NCBI GenBank assembly: GCA_903894295.1
Contig: CAITPI010000113.1
Coordinates: forward strand, 1-61,796
Origin: an uncultured Acidimicrobiaceae bacterium
GTDB taxonomy: Bacteria; Actinomycetota; Acidimicrobiia; Acidimicrobiales; RAAP-2
Reading direction: 5' to 3'
DNA length: 61,796 nt
The notes under the pieces were generated by a model, which did no database searches, was not told where the DNA came from, and worked only from the letters and a program-made list of their open reading frames with translations. Below, one piece after another: positions 43,048-53,683 of the stretch; the stretch's first letter is position 1, and every line of letters begins with the position of its first letter. A program made the position numbers and the translations under genes.

Positions 43048-44481
43048 ATGATCGAGAAAGGCGTTGCGGTGCCCGACAGTTTTGACCTCGTGGTGATCGG
43101 AGGGGGTCCGGGCGGTTATGCAGCGGCCCTTTATGGGGCATCGGCCGGTCTGTCGGTGGCCCTGGTCGAGCAGGACAAGGTCGGCGGTACCTGTCTGCAC
43201 CGGGGATGTGTGCCTGCCAAGGCGTTTCTGGAGACGGCGTCGGTCAACCGGACCGTCCGAGGTGCCCAACAGTTCGGGATCGGTGACGGCGTCGTGCCCG
43301 CCGTCGATTTCACGGTGAGCCAGGACCGCAAACAGAGTGTGGTGGGGCAGCTGTTTGCCGGCCTGTCCGGTTTGATCAAGGGCCGGGGCATCACCCTCTA
43401 CAACGGGACCGGCACGCTCGGTGCCGACGGCGAGGTCACGATCACCGGAAGTGATGGCGAGGTGACCAGGATTTCCGGAAGCAACGTGGTGCTGGCTCCG
43501 GGGTCCCTGCCTCGGACCGTCCCCGGGTTTGTCGTGGACGGCCGGCTGGTGCTCACCTCGGACGAGTTCCTCGACCTTGCGACCCTGCCCGGACGGGTGG
43601 CCGTGATCGGAGGCGGGGCCATCGGTTGCGAGTTCGCCTCGATGCTGGCCGACCTCGGTTCCGAGGTGACCATGTTCGAAGCCATGGAGACCATCCTGAA
43701 CGGCTGTGACGACGACGTTGTCCGCACCGTGGCCCGGTCGTTCAAGAAGCGGGGCATCACCGTTCTGGCCGGCACCCAGGTGAACGGCCACACCCCCAGT
43801 CCGGACGGAACTTCCACCGTCGTGTCCTACGGCGACTCCCAGAGCGTCGAGGTTGATGCGGTCGTGGTGTCGGTCGGACGCCGACCCCGGACCGAGGGCC
43901 TGCTGGGCGAGGGCACGGGGGTGACCATCGACGAGCGAGGATTCGTCGTCGTGGACGAACTCATGGCCACCACGGCACCGGGGGTCTGGGCGGTGGGCGA
44001 CGCCACGGCCACCCCCCAACTGGCCCACGTGGCCTTCGCCGAGGCGATCGTGGCCGTCCGGTCCGTTCTCGGGGAAGCGGCCGTGCCGGTGGACTACTCC
44101 CGGGTGCCCTGGGCCATCTACTGTCATCCCGAAGTGGCCTTTGCCGGAATGACCGAGGCCCAGGCCCGCTCGGCCGGTCACGATGTCGTGGTGAAGAAGG
44201 ACCCGTTCGGGGGGAACAGCCGGGCCCGCATCATCGGCGAGACCGAGGGCATGGTCAAGGTGGTGGCCGAACGGAGGCCCGACGGCTCGGCGGGCCAGGT
44301 GTTGGGTGTCCACATGGTCGGTCCGTGGGTGACCGAACAGCTCGGAGCGGGATACCTTGCCGTCAACTGGGAAGCGACCGTGGACGAGGTGGCGCACTTC
44401 ATCCAACCCCATCCGTCCCTGTCCGAGACGTTTGGCGAAGCCGTGTTGGCACTGACCGGAAGGGGACTGCACGTTGGCTGA
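43048..44481 (+). CDS. lpdA: Dihydrolipoyl dehydrogenase (E3)
   Basis: A 477-residue FAD enzyme that reoxidises dihydrolipoyl groups of 2-oxoacid dehydrogenase complexes. It has the FAD motif VVIGGGPGGYAAALYGASAG, redox Cys pair GGTCLHRGCVPAK, NAD motif VAVIGGGAIGCEFASMLADL, GVWAVGDATATPQLAHVAFA, and the C-terminal His-Glu in QPHPSLSETFGEA. A TAGTGT at 43015 and GGAAAGG before the ATG suggest a short leader with a ribosome site. A GTG eight codons in is a second possible start. The E2 gene overlaps its end. Confidence 0.95.
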   Translation: MIEKGVAVPDSFDLVVIGGGPGGYAAALYGASAGLSVALVEQDKVGGTCLHRGCVPAKAFLETASVNRTVRGAQQFGIGDGVVPAVDFTVSQDRKQSVVGQLFAGLSGLIKGRGITLYNGTGTLGADGEVTITGSDGEVTRISGSNVVLAPGSLPRTVPGFVVDGRLVLTSDEFLDLATLPGRVAVIGGGAIGCEFASMLADLGSEVTMFEAMETILNGCDDDVVRTVARSFKKRGITVLAGTQVNGHTPSPDGTSTVVSYGDSQSVEVDAVVVSVGRRPRTEGLLGEGTGVTIDERGFVVVDELMATTAPGVWAVGDATATPQLAHVAFAEAIVAVRSVLGEAAVPVDYSRVPWAIYCHPEVAFAGMTEAQARSAGHDVVVKKDPFGGNSRARIIGETEGMVKVVAERRPDGSAGQVLGVHMVGPWVTEQLGAGYLAVNWEATVDEVAHFIQPHPSLSETFGEAVLALTGRGLHVG

Positions 44482-45799
44482 CATCACGCTGCCCGAACTC
44501 GGGGAGACGGTGACCGAGGGCACCATCACCCGATGGCTGAAGGCGGTCGGAGACGCCGTGGCCCGCGATGAGCCACTCTATGAAGTCTCCACCGACAAGG
44601 TCGACTCCGAAGTTCCGTCTCCGGTTGAAGGGGTGCTCACCGCCATTCTGGTGCCCGAAGGCGACACGGTCGACATGGGCGTCGTTCTCGCCGTCATCTC
44701 GCCGGCCGGAGAAGTGGCGGAGGTTCCGACTCCCGAGGCTCCGACCGGTGTGGCGCCGGCCGGGGATCCGGCTCGGTCGGATCCGCCTGCTCAGGTCCCG
44801 GCCGAGACCGGAACGACGTCGGGACCGGTGTCCGCCCCGGTCGGTGGAGCGGTCCTCTCACCGGTGGTTCGGGCCCTTCTGACCAACGCCGGCATTGACC
44901 CGGCCACTCTGACCGGCACCGGACTCGGTGGCCGGATCACCCGCTCGGATGCCGAACGGGCGGTGGCCGGCCTGGCGTCGGGACCACAGACGTCCGTATC
45001 CGCCGGGACCCCGGTGGCGCCCGCCACCGGTGGGGTCCCTTCGGGTTCGATGGATCTCGGTGCCTTCGCGCCGCCGCCGCCCGGCGACCGGGACGAGGTG
45101 GTGCCGTTCACGACGATCCGCCGACGCACGGCCGAACACATGCTGGCGTCCCAGGCCATCTCCGCCCATACGTTGATGGTCCGCGAGGTGGACTACGAAT
45201 CCGTCGAGCGGATTCGCCGGTCCCACGGGGAGCGCTTCATTGAAGAAGAGGGCTTCGGACTCGACTACGTGACCTTTGTGGCCCGGGCTGCAGTGGAGGC
45301 ACTGGGCGAGTTTCCGCACCTGAACGCTTCGGTCGGAAACGGGGGACTGATCGTCCACCGGGACGTCAACCTCGGTGTCAGCGTGGACCTCGGGGGCGAG
45401 GGCGCCATCGTGCCGGTGGTCCATCAGGCCGAAGAGTTGAACCTTCGGGGTATGGCCCGTCGCCTCCAGGAGGTGACGGCCCGGGCCGAGGCTTCGGCCC
45501 TCACCCTGGACGACATCAGCGGCGGGACGTTCTCCATCTCCAACACCGGTCCCCTGGGCACGTTTGTGACCGGGCCGATCATCAACCAGCCCCAGGTGGC
45601 GGTGCTGTCGGTGGACGGCGTCCGGCGCAAGCCGGTGGTGGTGGAGTCGACCGACGGGACCGAGTCCATCGCCATCCACTCGATCGGCATGGTGGCGGTC
45701 ACCTTCGACCAGCGGGCCGTCGACGGCCCGTATGTGGCCCGGTTCCTGGCCCGGGTGGCCGAGATCCTGGACGAGCGGGACTGGGCCGGAGAGCTCTGA
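44474..45799 (+). CDS. Dihydrolipoamide acyltransferase (E2) with Gln in place of the catalytic His
   Basis: A 441-residue E2 subunit. Residues 1-77 are one lipoyl domain with the lipoylated Lys42 in EVSTDKVDSEVPSP. An Ala/Pro linker follows, then a peripheral-subunit-binding domain (SPVVRALLTNAGIDPATLTG, about 134-175). The catalytic domain (about 205-441) includes ISGGTFSISNTGPLG and PIINQPQVAVLSVDGVRR. The usual DHRxxDG motif near the C-terminus reads FDQRAVDG here, so Gln413 (codon 45710-45712, CAG) replaces the catalytic His. The TTG start overlaps the lpdA stop region by eight bases. It is probably the succinyl or acetyl transferase of a 2-oxoacid dehydrogenase; no E1 gene is in the window. 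Confidence 0.85.
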   Translation: MADITLPELGETVTEGTITRWLKAVGDAVARDEPLYEVSTDKVDSEVPSPVEGVLTAILVPEGDTVDMGVVLAVISPAGEVAEVPTPEAPTGVAPAGDPARSDPPAQVPAETGTTSGPVSAPVGGAVLSPVVRALLTNAGIDPATLTGTGLGGRITRSDAERAVAGLASGPQTSVSAGTPVAPATGGVPSGSMDLGAFAPPPPGDRDEVVPFTTIRRRTAEHMLASQAISAHTLMVREVDYESVERIRRSHGERFIEEEGFGLDYVTFVARAAVEALGEFPHLNASVGNGGLIVHRDVNLGVSVDLGGEGAIVPVVHQAEELNLRGMARRLQEVTARAEASALTLDDISGGTFSISNTGPLGTFVTGPIINQPQVAVLSVDGVRRKPVVVESTDGTESIAIHSIGMVAVTFDQRAVDGPYVARFLARVAEILDERDWAGEL

Positions 45800-45801
45800 G
45801 C

Positions 45802-47448
45802 GTGAGGGTTCGCCGCCTCGGCCGGGTCAGCTACGGCGAGGCCTGGGACCTGCAAAAGGCCTTGCAGCGGGAGAGCGACGAGGAGTATCTCCTGCTGCTC
45901 GAGCACCCGGATGTCTACACCCGGGGTCGCCACGCCGATCCGGCCAACACCAGGGATCTCGGTGTCGATGCCACCATGGTGGACGTCGACCGGGCGGGAG
46001 ACGTGACCTTCCATGGTCCGGGCCAACTCGTCGGCTACCCGATCGTGAACGTGGGCACCGGACCCCACCGGGGACCGGAGCACGTGCGGCGGGTCGAGCA
46101 GGTGGTGATCGATGCGCTGGTGGCACTCGGTCTGGACGCCGACGATGTCGGACGGCTGCCGGGCTGCCCCGGTGTGTGGGTCGGTCTCGCCGGAGTTGAT
46201 CCGGCCCCGAGGAAGATTGCGGCGGTGGGAGTCCGGGTGGCCCGGGGGCGCACGATGCACGGCTTTGGCCTGAACGTGACCACCGACCTCGCCGGCTTTT
46301 CCCGGATTGTCCCGTGTGGGATCTCGCGCCACCCGGTGACGTCGCTGGAAGCCGAGGGGTGGTCCGTTCCCATCGACGAGGTCGCCTCGGCCGTCGAAGC
46401 GGCGGCGGTGCGACAGTGGGGGCCGGTCGAGAGCCATCAGGCCGTCACCCCGGCTGGCGTTGACGCTCCGGCCGGTGCGGGCGGGGCCACGTCGGCCTTG
46501 CAGCGTCGGCTGCGACGGGCCGGAGTCGACGAGGCGGTCGACATCTCCGGGCGCAAGCCGGCCTGGATGAAGGTGCCGGTCCGCATGGGCGAGGAGTTCC
46601 GGGAGCTCCGGTCTTCCCTGGCCCGGGCCGACCTCGTGACCGTGTGTGAAGAAGCGGGCTGTCCGAACATCTATGAGTGCTGGTCCGCCGGCACCGCGAC
46701 CTTCATGATCAACGGGTCCCGGTGCACCCGGGCCTGTGGGTTCTGCCTGATCGACACGTCCCGGCCGTTGCCGCTCGATCCGGGCGAGCCGGCCCGGGTG
46801 GCCGATGCCGTGGCCCGCCTGGGATTGGCGCATGCGGTGGTCACCTGCGTGGCGAGGGACGACCTGCCAGACGGCGGAGCGGCCGCCTTTGCCGCCACCA
46901 TCCGGGCCATCCGGGACCGGTCGGCCCACACAGTGGTCGAAGTGCTGATCTCGGACCTGAAGGGTGAACGGTCCTCGCTCGACCTGGTGCTCGAGGCCCG
47001 GCCGGACGTGGTCAACCACAACATTGAAACATCGGCCCGACTCCAGCGGGCCGTCAGACCGTCCGCCTCCTACGCCCGAAGCCTGGTGGTTCTGGCCCGG
47101 GCCAAGGATGGCGGTTTCACCACAAAGTCGGGCATCATCGTGGGCATGGGAGAAGGGAAAGCGGAGGTGTTGGCCACCATGGAGGATCTGCGCGCCGTTG
47201 GGGTGGACATCATCACCATCGGTCAGTATCTGCGGCCGACCGACCGGCACGTTCCGGTGGCCCGGTGGTGGGCGCCCGAGGAGTTCGACGAACTGGCGGC
47301 CGCCGGGGAGGCCATGGGTTTCGCCCACGTGCAGGCCAGCCCGCTCACCCGTTCGAGCTATCACGCCAGGGAGGCCGCCGACGAAGCCCGACCGGCACCC
47401 TTGCCGGCCTGGGTCCCGGTGACCCTGGGTTCGAAGGTCCTCCCATGA
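45802..47448 (+). CDS. Bifunctional lipoyl(octanoyl) transferase-lipoyl synthase, LipB-LipA fusion
   Basis: One uninterrupted 548-residue frame. Residues 1-205 are LipB, with DVTFHGPGQLVGYP (67-80), catalytic Lys138 (KIAAVGVRV) and catalytic Cys172 (PCGISRHPVTS). After a 40-residue Ala/Gly-rich linker, residues 250-548 are LipA. Its auxiliary cluster Cys282, Cys287 and Cys293 lie in VCEEAGCPNIYEC, its radical-SAM Cys308, Cys312 and Cys315 in CTRACGFC, then VARDDLPDGG and the C-terminal RSSYHA Ser. LipB transfers octanoate from ACP to Lys of E2, and LipA inserts two sulfurs. Both active sites look complete. It starts two bases after E2, its likely substrate, and overlaps the next gene by four. 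Confidence 0.9.
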   Translation: MRVRRLGRVSYGEAWDLQKALQRESDEEYLLLLEHPDVYTRGRHADPANTRDLGVDATMVDVDRAGDVTFHGPGQLVGYPIVNVGTGPHRGPEHVRRVEQVVIDALVALGLDADDVGRLPGCPGVWVGLAGVDPAPRKIAAVGVRVARGRTMHGFGLNVTTDLAGFSRIVPCGISRHPVTSLEAEGWSVPIDEVASAVEAAAVRQWGPVESHQAVTPAGVDAPAGAGGATSALQRRLRRAGVDEAVDISGRKPAWMKVPVRMGEEFRELRSSLARADLVTVCEEAGCPNIYECWSAGTATFMINGSRCTRACGFCLIDTSRPLPLDPGEPARVADAVARLGLAHAVVTCVARDDLPDGGAAAFAATIRAIRDRSAHTVVEVLISDLKGERSSLDLVLEARPDVVNHNIETSARLQRAVRPSASYARSLVVLARAKDGGFTTKSGIIVGMGEGKAEVLATMEDLRAVGVDIITIGQYLRPTDRHVPVARWWAPEEFDELAAAGEAMGFAHVQASPLTRSSYHAREAADEARPAPLPAWVPVTLGSKVLP

Positions 47449-48626
47449 GCGCCGGGACGCCGAATCCGGTGTTGTCCGAGGGTGCCCGTTCGGCCCGGGT
47501 CGACCGGCTCGAGCGGGTGCGCCAGGCCATGGACCACCAGGGGATCGATGCCCTGCTCCTCTCCCATGGTGCCGACCTCCCGTGGCTGACCGGCTACTCC
47601 GCCATGCCGCTGGAACGCCTGACGCTTCTGGTGGTGCCCCGCCGGGGAACCCCGGTGCTGGTGGTGCCGGGTCTCGAGGCGCCACGGGTGCCCGACAGCG
47701 ACGGAATGGTCGAGTTGGCACCCTGGTCGGACGCCGAAGATCCGATGGACCTCGTTACGGATCTGCTCAGGCGGGCCGGTGCCACTGCCGGCCGTCTTGG
47801 CATTTCCGACCGGGCCTGGGCCACCACGGTGCTGGGACTCCAACGGCACCTGCCCGAAGCCCGATGGCGGGAGGCGTCAGCCGTCACGGCTCCGCTCCGG
47901 GCCGTGAAGGACGCCACCGAGTTGGAGGCGTTGCGCCGGGCCGGTGCGGCCGCCGACCGGGTGGCGGCGGCCTTGCAGGCGGGCGAGATCCCCATGGTCG
48001 GTCGCCGGGAAGCCGATGTCTCGGCCGAGTTGGGGGCCCGGCTTCTGGCCGAAGGACACTTCCAGGTCAACTTCGCCATCGTCGGCAGTGGGCCGAATGC
48101 GGCCAGTCCCCATCACGAACCGGGTGAGCGCGTCATCCAGGCCGGAGAGACCGTCGTCTGTGACTTCGGTGGCGCCCTCGCCCTCGATGGCGACGTCGGC
48201 TACTGCTCGGACATCACCCGCACCGTGGTGACCGGAGAACCCACGGCGGAGGTGGGTGAAGCGTATGAGGTCCTGCGCCGGGCCCAGCAGGCCGGCGTGG
48301 CGGCGGCCCGGGCCGGAGTGACGGCCGCGTCGGTCGATGCGGTGACCCGGACCGTGATCGACGAGGCCGGCTGGGGCGAGTACTTCATCCACCGCACCGG
48401 TCACGGGATCGGGATCGAGGAGCACGAAGACCCCTACATCGTGGTGGGAAACGAAACCGTCCTCGAGCCCGGACATGCCTTCAGCGTCGAACCGGGCATC
48501 TACGTGCCCGGCCGGTTCGGCATGCGCCTCGAGGACATCGTGATCATCGACGAACAGGGAGGGCCGGAGAGGTTGAACCGGGCCGACCATGCGTTGGCGG
48601 TCGTGGAGTCCGGGGTCGCTCCGTGA
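47445..48626 (+). CDS. Xaa-Pro aminopeptidase (M24B)
   Basis: A 393-residue metallopeptidase. The N-terminal creatinase-like domain (about 15-150) holds DALLLSHGADLPWLTGYSAM. The catalytic domain has metal ligands in VVCDFGGALALDGDVGYCSD and ITRTVV (Asp, Asp), HRTGHGIGIEEHEDP (His), FSVEPGIYVPGRFGMRLEDI (Glu, Glu). It removes N-terminal residues preceding proline. The ATG overlaps the LipB-LipA stop by four bases, so it is translationally coupled to the lipoylation operon. Xaa-Pro peptidase genes often sit in unrelated operons, so no functional link is implied. Confidence 0.9.
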   Translation: MSAGTPNPVLSEGARSARVDRLERVRQAMDHQGIDALLLSHGADLPWLTGYSAMPLERLTLLVVPRRGTPVLVVPGLEAPRVPDSDGMVELAPWSDAEDPMDLVTDLLRRAGATAGRLGISDRAWATTVLGLQRHLPEARWREASAVTAPLRAVKDATELEALRRAGAAADRVAAALQAGEIPMVGRREADVSAELGARLLAEGHFQVNFAIVGSGPNAASPHHEPGERVIQAGETVVCDFGGALALDGDVGYCSDITRTVVTGEPTAEVGEAYEVLRRAQQAGVAAARAGVTAASVDAVTRTVIDEAGWGEYFIHRTGHGIGIEEHEDPYIVVGNETVLEPGHAFSVEPGIYVPGRFGMRLEDIVIIDEQGGPERLNRADHALAVVESGVAP

Positions 48627-50179: not shown

Positions 50180-53100
50180 TCAGGCCACGAAATACTTGGC
50201 CCGGGGGTGGTGGCAGATGATGGCCGTGGTGGACTGTTCCGGGTGCAACTGGAACCCTTCGGAGACTTCGACCCCGATCTGGCCGGCACCGAGCAGGTCG
50301 ACCACCTTGGCGTTGTCCTCGAGGCGGGGACAGGCCGGATAGCCCCACGAGTAGCGGCCACCCCGGTACTTCTGGCGGAACAGCCCGGCGAGGGACGGTC
50401 CGTCCTCATCGGCGAAACCAAGTTCTTCCCGGATGCGACGGTGCCAGAACTCGGCCAGCGCTTCGGCCATCTCGACCCCGAGTCCGTGCAGGTAGAGATA
50501 CTGCTGGTACTCATCGGCGGCAAAGAGCCGGGCCGCCTCTTCGGAGACCCGGCGCCCCATGGTCACCACCTGGAACGTCGCCCAGTCCTTTTCGCCCGAC
50601 TCCACCGTGCGGAAGAAGTCGCTGATGCACAACCACGGCTCTTCGCTCTGGCGCGGGAAGTTGAAGCGCATCCGCTCTGCGGTCCGCGACTCGTCGGTGA
50701 AGATGACGAGATCGTCCCCGTCGGCGTTGGCGGCGAAGTGGCCCCAGGCCACCTGGGGCACGAGCAGTTGCTCGGCCTTGGCCAGCGCCAGTTGCTCCCG
50801 CAACAAGGACCGGACCCGGTCCTTGAATTCGGGGTCGGTCTCTCCATTTTCGGGCCGGAATCCCCACTGGTTCCGGAAAAGCGCCGTCTCGTTGAGGTAG
50901 GCCGACACTTCGTCGATGGACATTCCCTTGGCCACCCGGGCGCCGACAAAGGGGGGCGGGAAGAGTGGATTGTCGGCTTCGACCTCGGGCGAACGCACCG
51001 GAAGGACTTCGCCGCGGGCCTTGGCCTCCTCGGCCGCCTGCCGGCGCAACTCGCTCCGCCGGGGCCCGAGGTCCCGGCCGCCGAGGGTGGTGCCGAAGCC
51101 GGGATCGTCTTCGCCGCTGCGCTTCATCTCGACCAGCCGGTCCATGGTGCGCAGCCCCTCGAAGGCGTCCTTTCCGTAGAAGAGGCGACCGTCATACACC
51201 TCGCGCAGGTCCCGCTCCACGTAGGTACGGGTCAGGGCGGCTCCGCCCAGGATGACCGGGATGTGGCTGAGACCCCGACGGTTCAGCTCCTCCAGGTTCT
51301 CCCGCATGATGAGGGTGGACTTGACCAGCAGGCCGCTCATGCCGATGGCGTCGGCTCCGGACTCCTCCACGGCAGCGATCATCTCGGCGATCCCGATCTT
51401 GATCCCGAGGTTCTTCACGGTGTACCCGTTGTTGGTCAGGATGATGTCCACCAGGTTCTTGCCGATGTCGTGGACGTCACCCTTTACGGTGGCAAGCACC
51501 ATGGTGCCCTTGCCACCCTGGTCGGCCTTTTCCATGTGGGGCTCGAGGAAGGCCACCGCCGTCTTCATGGTTTCGGCCGAGCCGAGCACGAACGGCAGCT
51601 GCATCTCGCCCGAGGCGAACAGTTCGCCGACCGTCTTCATCCCGGCCAGCAGGTGGTCGTTGATGATGGCGAGCGGCGTGATGCCGGCCTCCATTGCCTC
51701 GGCGAGGTCGTCTTCCAGCCCGTTGCGGTCGCCGTCGATGATCCGGTGCTCGAGGCGTTGCTCGACCGGCCATCCGGAACGGTCCTCCCGGGTCGAGTTC
51801 GAGGTGGCCGAGACCCCCTCGAACATGGTGAGCAGTTCGGAGAGCGGGTCATAGGTGTCGGTGCGCCGGTCGTAGATGAGGTCGAGACAGACCTCCCGGG
51901 CCCGCTCGTCGATCCGGGCCAGCGGGAGGATCTTCGAGGCGTGGACGATGGCGGCGTCGAGTCCGGCCCCCACGCATTCGTGGAGGAAGACCGAGTTGAG
52001 GACCTGCCGGGCGGCCGGGTTCAGGCCGAACGAGACGTTGGACAGGCCGAGAATGGTGAAGACGCCGGGCAACCCTTCCTTGATGCGGCGGATGCCTTCG
52101 ATGGTTTCGATCCCGTCCCGGCGGCTCTCTTCCATGCCGGTCGACAGCGGCAGGGCCAGGGCATCGAACATGAGATCTTCGGGGCGCAACCCGTAGCGGT
52201 TCACCGCAATGTCGTGGATGGCCTTGGCCGACGAGAACTTCCAGTCCGCCGTGCGGGCCTGGCCCTCTTCGTCGATGCAGGTGCAGACGACGGCTGCTCC
52301 GAACTCCTTGGCCAGGGTGAGGAAGGAGTCCAGCCGGGTACCTTCGGCGTCGCCTTCTTCCAGGTTGACCGAGTTGATGACGGCCCGGCCTCCGATCCAG
52401 GCCAAGGCGGTCTCGACCACCGGGGCTTCGGTGGAGTCCACCATCAGGGGCACGGTCGACTGGGTGGCGAACCGCGAGGCGATCTCCTCCATGTCGGCCA
52501 CGCCGTCGGCCCCGGTGTAGTCCACGCAGACATCGATCAGGTGGCTTCCTTCTCCGACCTGCTCCCGGGCCATGGCCACACAGGTGTCCCAGTCACCGTC
52601 CAACATCGCTTCCCGGAACTTCTTCGAGCCGTTGGCGTTGGTGCGTTCCCCCACCACGAGGAAGGAGGAGTCCTGCACGAAAGGCACGTGCGTGTAGATC
52701 GAGGCGGCCCCGGGTTCGGATTCGGGCGTCGGCCGGGCCGGGGTGAGGCCCCGCACCGCATCGACGACGGCCGCCAGATGGTCCGGCGTGGTGCCGCAGC
52801 AGCCGCCGACAATGGAGACGCCGAGTTCCGAAACGAACTGGCGTTGGTACTGGGCCAACTGCTCCGGGCTGAGGTCGTAGTGCATCGCCCCGTCGACCAC
52901 CGACGGCAGTCCGGCGTTGGGAAGGCAGGAGATCGGCACCCGGGCATGGCTGACGAGGTAGCGCAGCGGCTCGAACATCTCGGCCGGACCGGTGGCGCAG
53001 TTGAGACCGATGACGTCGACATCCATGGCCTCGAGGGCCGACAGGGCGGCGCCGATCTCGGTGCCCGGCAACATCGTGCCGGTCAGTTCGATCGTCACCT

Positions 53101-53683
53101 GAACCTGGATGGGCAGGTGGATGCCGGTGGCGGTCATGGCCCGACGGGCGGCATTGATGGCGGCCTTGGCCTGCAGGAGGTCGAAGACGGTCTCGATCAG
53201 GATGAGGTCGACCCGTCCCTCGATGAGGGCTTCGACCTGTTCCTGGTAGACGTCTCGCAGGTCGGCGTAGCGGATCTGGCCGAGGGTGGGGAACTTGGTG
53301 CCCGGTCCGATGCTGCCGGCCACAAACCGGGGCTGCTCCGGCGTCGAGTACTCGTCGGCGGCCGTCCGGGCCAGCGTGGCGGCGGCCAGGTTGAGTTCCC
53401 GCACCCGGTTCTCGAGTCCGTACTCGGCCAACACGGTGCTGAAACCCCCGAAGGTGTCGGTCTCGACCACGTCGCAACCCACGGCGAAGAACGAGCGGTG
53501 CACGTTGGCGACCGATTCGGGTCGGGAGACCACCAGCACCTCGTTGCAGCCCTCGAGGTCCGCACTACCGAAGTCTTCGGCACTCAATCCGGCCAGCTGG
53601 AGGTTGGTGCCCATCGCACCGTCGAAGACCAGGACGCGCTCGTTGACGGCCCGCAGGTAGGGAGAATCAGAAGTGGAAGACAT
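50180..53683 (-). CDS. metH: Cobalamin-dependent methionine synthase MetH
   Basis: A 1167-residue, four-module enzyme making methionine from homocysteine and methyltetrahydrofolate. The homocysteine module (1-320) has GAMGTNLQL and Zn ligands in GLNCATGP and VGGCCGTTPDH. The folate module (about 340-600) has VVGERTNANGSKKF and DVCVDYTGADG. The cobalamin module (about 640-880) has the cap, ATVKGDVHDIGKNLVDIIL with the B12-ligand His, and MSGLLVKST. The activation module ends with RYSWGYPACPRLEDN and CHHPRAKYF. All modules appear complete. It is divergent from a cobalamin adenosyltransferase 88 bases away, a gap too short for a B12 riboswitch. Confidence 0.97.
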   Translation of the reverse strand: MSSTSDSPYLRAVNERVLVFDGAMGTNLQLAGLSAEDFGSADLEGCNEVLVVSRPESVANVHRSFFAVGCDVVETDTFGGFSTVLAEYGLENRVRELNLAAATLARTAADEYSTPEQPRFVAGSIGPGTKFPTLGQIRYADLRDVYQEQVEALIEGRVDLILIETVFDLLQAKAAINAARRAMTATGIHLPIQVQVTIELTGTMLPGTEIGAALSALEAMDVDVIGLNCATGPAEMFEPLRYLVSHARVPISCLPNAGLPSVVDGAMHYDLSPEQLAQYQRQFVSELGVSIVGGCCGTTPDHLAAVVDAVRGLTPARPTPESEPGAASIYTHVPFVQDSSFLVVGERTNANGSKKFREAMLDGDWDTCVAMAREQVGEGSHLIDVCVDYTGADGVADMEEIASRFATQSTVPLMVDSTEAPVVETALAWIGGRAVINSVNLEEGDAEGTRLDSFLTLAKEFGAAVVCTCIDEEGQARTADWKFSSAKAIHDIAVNRYGLRPEDLMFDALALPLSTGMEESRRDGIETIEGIRRIKEGLPGVFTILGLSNVSFGLNPAARQVLNSVFLHECVGAGLDAAIVHASKILPLARIDERAREVCLDLIYDRRTDTYDPLSELLTMFEGVSATSNSTREDRSGWPVEQRLEHRIIDGDRNGLEDDLAEAMEAGITPLAIINDHLLAGMKTVGELFASGEMQLPFVLGSAETMKTAVAFLEPHMEKADQGGKGTMVLATVKGDVHDIGKNLVDIILTNNGYTVKNLGIKIGIAEMIAAVEESGADAIGMSGLLVKSTLIMRENLEELNRRGLSHIPVILGGAALTRTYVERDLREVYDGRLFYGKDAFEGLRTMDRLVEMKRSGEDDPGFGTTLGGRDLGPRRSELRRQAAEEAKARGEVLPVRSPEVEADNPLFPPPFVGARVAKGMSIDEVSAYLNETALFRNQWGFRPENGETDPEFKDRVRSLLREQLALAKAEQLLVPQVAWGHFAANADGDDLVIFTDESRTAERMRFNFPRQSEEPWLCISDFFRTVESGEKDWATFQVVTMGRRVSEEAARLFAADEYQQYLYLHGLGVEMAEALAEFWHRRIREELGFADEDGPSLAGLFRQKYRGGRYSWGYPACPRLEDNAKVVDLLGAGQIGVEVSEGFQLHPEQSTTAIICHHPRAKYFVA

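Follow-up and report, generated by a model that had tools for sequence, protein, structure and literature searches.

The window, which is the whole stretch of 61,796 nucleotides analysed here, holds at 45802..47448 on its forward strand one frame of 548 open codons that begins with GTG and ends with TGA. By its open frame and family matches, it encodes a putative fused octanoyltransferase-lipoyl synthase of 548 aa, here called lipBA. The LipB half (residues 1-206; 45802..46419, +) contains the H71-Q75 loop, Lys138 and Cys172, and is supported by NCBIfam, alignment and a structural match to 1w66. A linker of about residues 207-250 (46420..46551, +) follows, with a conserved LxxRLxxAGV segment and a predicted helix at 232-239. 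The LipA half (residues 247-528; 46540..47385, +) is supported by TIGR00510 and PRK05481, by invariant columns and by a structural match to 5exk.

Both halves score above the curated NCBIfam cut-offs. The LipB models PRK14345 (residues 1-205) and TIGR00214 reach 183.6 bits against a cut-off of 155 and 117.3 against 83.55, respectively, and the LipA models TIGR00510 (residues 247-528) and PRK05481 reach 336.6 bits against 310.25 and 388.4 against 203. The Pfam search draws the same two-half picture, with LIAS_N marginally below its cut-off (26.8 versus 27 bits). A sequence-only reading of this DNA had proposed one frame of 548 codons in which a complete LipA comes after a complete LipB, and had called for a domain search; the open frame and these profile matches bear the proposal out. 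The source genome, a draft of 137 contigs, shows one LipA and one LipB, lipBA being the sole copy of each.

The residues expected of the two enzymes are all at the positions given in that reading. The LipB half has Lys138, Cys172 and HGPGQ at 71-75 (lipBA numbering), and the LipA half has the auxiliary cluster Cys282/287/293 (CX4CX5C), the radical-SAM cluster Cys308/312/315 (CX3CX2C) and the C-terminal motif RSSYH at 517-521. The LipB Lys/Cys pair is K142/C176 in Mycobacterium tuberculosis and K135/C169 in Escherichia coli (PMC9307952), and the K138-C172 spacing of 34 in lipBA is the same as in both. In an alignment of 89 diverse fusions, K138 and C172 are invariant, and so are C282/287/293, C308/312/315 and R517-S519. 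As the catalytic and cluster-binding residues are invariant, the LipB and LipA activities are both very likely retained in the fused protein.

The fused gene lies in a compact cluster. The first gene considered encodes a dihydrolipoyl dehydrogenase, or E3 (43048..44481, +; Pyr_redox_2 and Pyr_redox_dim), and the second a 2-oxoacid dehydrogenase E2 (44474..45799, +) with one lipoyl domain (TDKVD), an E3-binding domain and a catalytic domain (PF00364, PF02817 and PF00198). The GTG start of lipBA is 2 nt past the E2 stop codon, and the lipBA stop codon is overlapped by the ATG of an M24 peptidase of the Xaa-Pro type (47445..48626, +; PF00557 and PF01321). Among fused loci whose flanks are long enough, most keep the E3-E2-lipBA order, and the M24 peptidase is often found 3′ of lipBA in the relatives. 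Scans for Rfam families, tRNAs and promoters gave nothing further.

One GcvH is found in the source genome. The two Biotin_lipoyl matches besides that of the E2 have an AMKM motif of the biotin type, which reduces the visible acceptors to the adjacent E2 and the single GcvH. Hence, judging from gene content, this E2, from the gene just upstream, and the GcvH are the likely acceptors. A second E2-type catalytic domain occurs in a 1237-aa frame (G000:C51:12990-13688, +; L210). That frame may encode a fusion of the KGD/SucA type (E1o-E2o) that lacks a lipoyl domain of its own and would share the adjacent E2. Separately, contig C108 of the source genome encodes a second lipoate-ligase-like protein, of 225 aa (L204:1288-1965, −; PF21948, 41.8 bits; RRRTGGG). 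It may be an enzyme like LplA or LipM, serving scavenging or GcvH.

The fusion is widespread in the class. Our sample comprised 198 Acidimicrobiia genomes, 186 with a match and 12 without, and the matched ones were classified by hand, mostly from a single alignment over both domains in one open frame. LipB and LipA share one stop-free frame in 182 of the 186, some of these with two incomplete halves where the contig ends, and the locus is cut by contig ends in three others (G158, G195 and G241). The remaining genome, G147, has a lone lipB (L250:1501-2097, −) with a stop before any LipA. LipA was not found elsewhere in this assembly, which is 85% complete, and the lone LipB may reflect loss, contamination or missing sequence.

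Most loci with a flagged stop or a two-piece match were fetched and the stretch between the halves was inspected. None of the 15 class loci examined for flagged stops has one between the halves, so the flagged stops must fall in other parts of the match. At each fetched locus, a script located LipB and LipA independently of each other and translated the sequence between them. This gave 150 fused loci with no stop, 33 loci with one or two same-frame stops and eight with a frame change. The separated loci are all outside the class except L074, whose halves are in different frames on a MAG contig of 1.25x coverage, probably by error.

The same architecture recurs among 60 relatives, and it was met again in named MAGs and in an isolate. 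The sequence-only reading had proposed a search of related genomes and had taken absence from every close relative as the sign of an artefact; instead, the fusion was found class-wide. Judged by the genomes sampled, it is a trait of the class Acidimicrobiia, common beyond the source genome. An acidimicrobiian-type fusion also occurs on a contig titled as a 'Bifidobacterium breve' MAG (L062). It groups with the acidimicrobiian sequences in the LipB tree, and the organism label is probably wrong.

Outside the class, the two genes stand apart. In the outgroup (Dietzia, Rhodococcus, Nocardioides, Streptomyces and others), lipB and then lipA are separate neighbouring genes, just as the earlier reading had held for actinobacteria, and they are separate at all out-of-class loci where both were placed. 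No fusion from outside Acidimicrobiia appeared among the long-frame candidates fetched from within the phylum. The view of lipBA as a fusion of operon partners is thus supported by the outgroup order and by the completeness of both domains.

The trees of both halves are compatible with one early fusion of neighbouring genes in the class. In the maximum-likelihood tree of the LipA half, the fused sequences make one group with an SH-aLRT of 95. The quick maximum-likelihood tree of the LipB half gives modest support: with the long branch L200 omitted, a single branch with an SH-aLRT of 90 separates off the fused sequences, and with L200 included two changes are counted.

We therefore propose, with high confidence in the reading as a whole, that lipBA encodes a bifunctional enzyme that would octanoylate and then sulfurate lipoyl domains. 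The LipB half would take octanoyl from octanoyl-ACP onto Cys172 and hand it on to a lipoyl-domain lysine, on the upstream E2 or the single GcvH. Using radical-SAM chemistry, the LipA half would then insert two sulfur atoms into the octanoyl chain while it is bound to the protein. Two adjacent genes, lipB and lipA, would have been joined in a single event, at the root of Acidimicrobiia or close to it, and kept joined since then almost without exception. We infer that the joined halves may ease the hand-off of octanoyl-E2 from LipB to LipA, the channelling that the sequence-only reading thought possible.

The fusion may also be neutral, with two independent enzymes in one chain gaining co-expression and equal amounts and no hand-off of octanoyl-E2. 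This shares the same bifunctional core and differs only on the hand-off, and we give it somewhat less than an even chance. It agrees with each half having all the residues for acting alone, with the acceptor holding the intermediate covalently so that diffusion could suffice, and with the linker length, which differs widely among the relatives (roughly 25-130 residues by alignment). Against it are the conserved segments in the linker, a well-defined overall arrangement in the AlphaFold2 predictions and the joined state kept across the class, even in the streamlined Actinomarina.

As to the linker, the sequence-only reading had described about 40 Ala/Gly-rich residues. The size stands, while the composition does so only in part, with Ala or Gly at 16 of 44 residues of about 207-250 and a conserved segment, SALQRRLRRAGVD, which recurs in many relatives and is predicted by AlphaFold2 as a confident helix. 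In many Acidimicrobiales, the linker closes with LxxRLxxAGV...RKPEW, in front of which FSRGxG often stands, and in Actinomarina and related families it resembles VDxLVxxGxFSPE...PIxIxGxLPGEPERPEWM. The RLxxAGV-type segment is absent from the stand-alone LipA of the other actinobacteria compared. By this conservation, the linker is more than a featureless tether.

The AlphaFold2 prediction of the lipBA protein from the 89-sequence alignment has a mean pLDDT of 94.0 and a pTM of 0.93, and that of the Actinomarina homologue a pLDDT of 92.9 and a pTM of 0.91. In lipBA the linker helix spans 232-239, and confidence is lowered mainly around 221-230 (about ten residues) and at the C-terminus. The pTM values suggest a fixed relative placement of the two halves. 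A stronger version of the hand-off is a rigid lipoyl-assembly module in which the linker helix and an inter-half interface align the active sites, so that one E2 visit brings octanoylation and then sulfuration. We consider this rather unlikely; if true, it would be a committed cofactor-assembly route for a whole bacterial class.

Two polypeptides could still come from the locus if the chain were cut in the linker or LipA were also translated from an internal start. In 45 of the 150 fusions, the linker does have a possible start codon preceded by a purine-rich stretch. However, the start is ATG in only 10 of the 150, at unconserved positions, and the window's linker has no ATG with such a stretch. 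A conserved internal LipA start was found in none of the 150 fusions by what is a weak scan, as a purine-rich stretch precedes only 48 of the 150 main starts.

Moreover, the linker is stop-free and its sequence is conserved lineage-wide. The linkers of the 150 fused loci (143 distinct proteins) have zero in-frame stops over about 8,000 codons, whereas the shifted frames have 164 and 231 over the same stretch, the linker bounds being set by a rough rule that places them badly at a few loci. Production of two polypeptides is thus very improbable. A false join of two genes through faulty assembly or sequencing, conceivable in a draft of many contigs, is rejected as having practically no chance, given the 182 fused class genomes, the isolate Acidiferrimicrobium sp. 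IK (L061) and the single-contig genomes G042, G073 and G086.

Returning to the bifunctional enzyme, its closest counterparts are the separate lipB-lipA pairs of other Actinomycetota. They have the same two enzymes in the same gene order, often with an E2 upstream of lipB as well, but one or two stop codons or a frame change stand between the genes, where lipBA has none. The solved relatives, M. tuberculosis LipB 1w66 and LipA 5exi/5exk, each cover one half of lipBA, with 46% and about 51% identity by structural alignment, and 5exk is the best structural match of the LipA half. Reportedly, as attributed to Hassan and Cronan in 2011, E. coli LipB and LipA copurify with dehydrogenase complexes. 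The E. coli pair carries out the same two-step chemistry as proposed for lipBA (PMC9307952), although as separate proteins with no covalent link rather than in one chain.

A fusion with LipA is known in another form. The NCBIfam family NF053790 (LplA_LipA_fuse, lipoate--protein ligase/lipoyl synthase) likewise has a lipoyl-attachment enzyme N-terminal to LipA, this being LplA by the model name and LipB in lipBA. On the lipBA protein the model scores 346 bits, where its cut-off is 800, and matches only the LipA part (model 332-605), so membership was rejected with the N-terminal part unmatched. Such proteins may already carry a multifunctional-fusion label from automatic annotation in databases.

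The earlier reading knew of no characterised LipB-LipA fusion, and none was found described in the literature searched; in a 2023 survey on how lipoate is assembled (PMC10332631), the passages on fusions deal with those of LplA/LplB. What appears to be new is the class-wide LipB-LipA fusion, while the family of each half and an LplA-LipA fusion family are already known.

The lipBA gene provides a natural covalent link, class-wide, between consecutive enzymes of an essential pathway. It is a ready construct for asking about the LipB-LipA hand-off of a protein-bound intermediate and may let the LipB-LipA-E2 assembly be seen by structure. The fusion is also a simple sequence trait marking Acidimicrobiia among the actinobacteria sampled. 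Elsewhere in the window, on the strand opposite to the lipBA cluster, lies a gene for MetH, the cobalamin-dependent methionine synthase, with homocysteine, pterin, B12 and activation domains (50180-53683, −).
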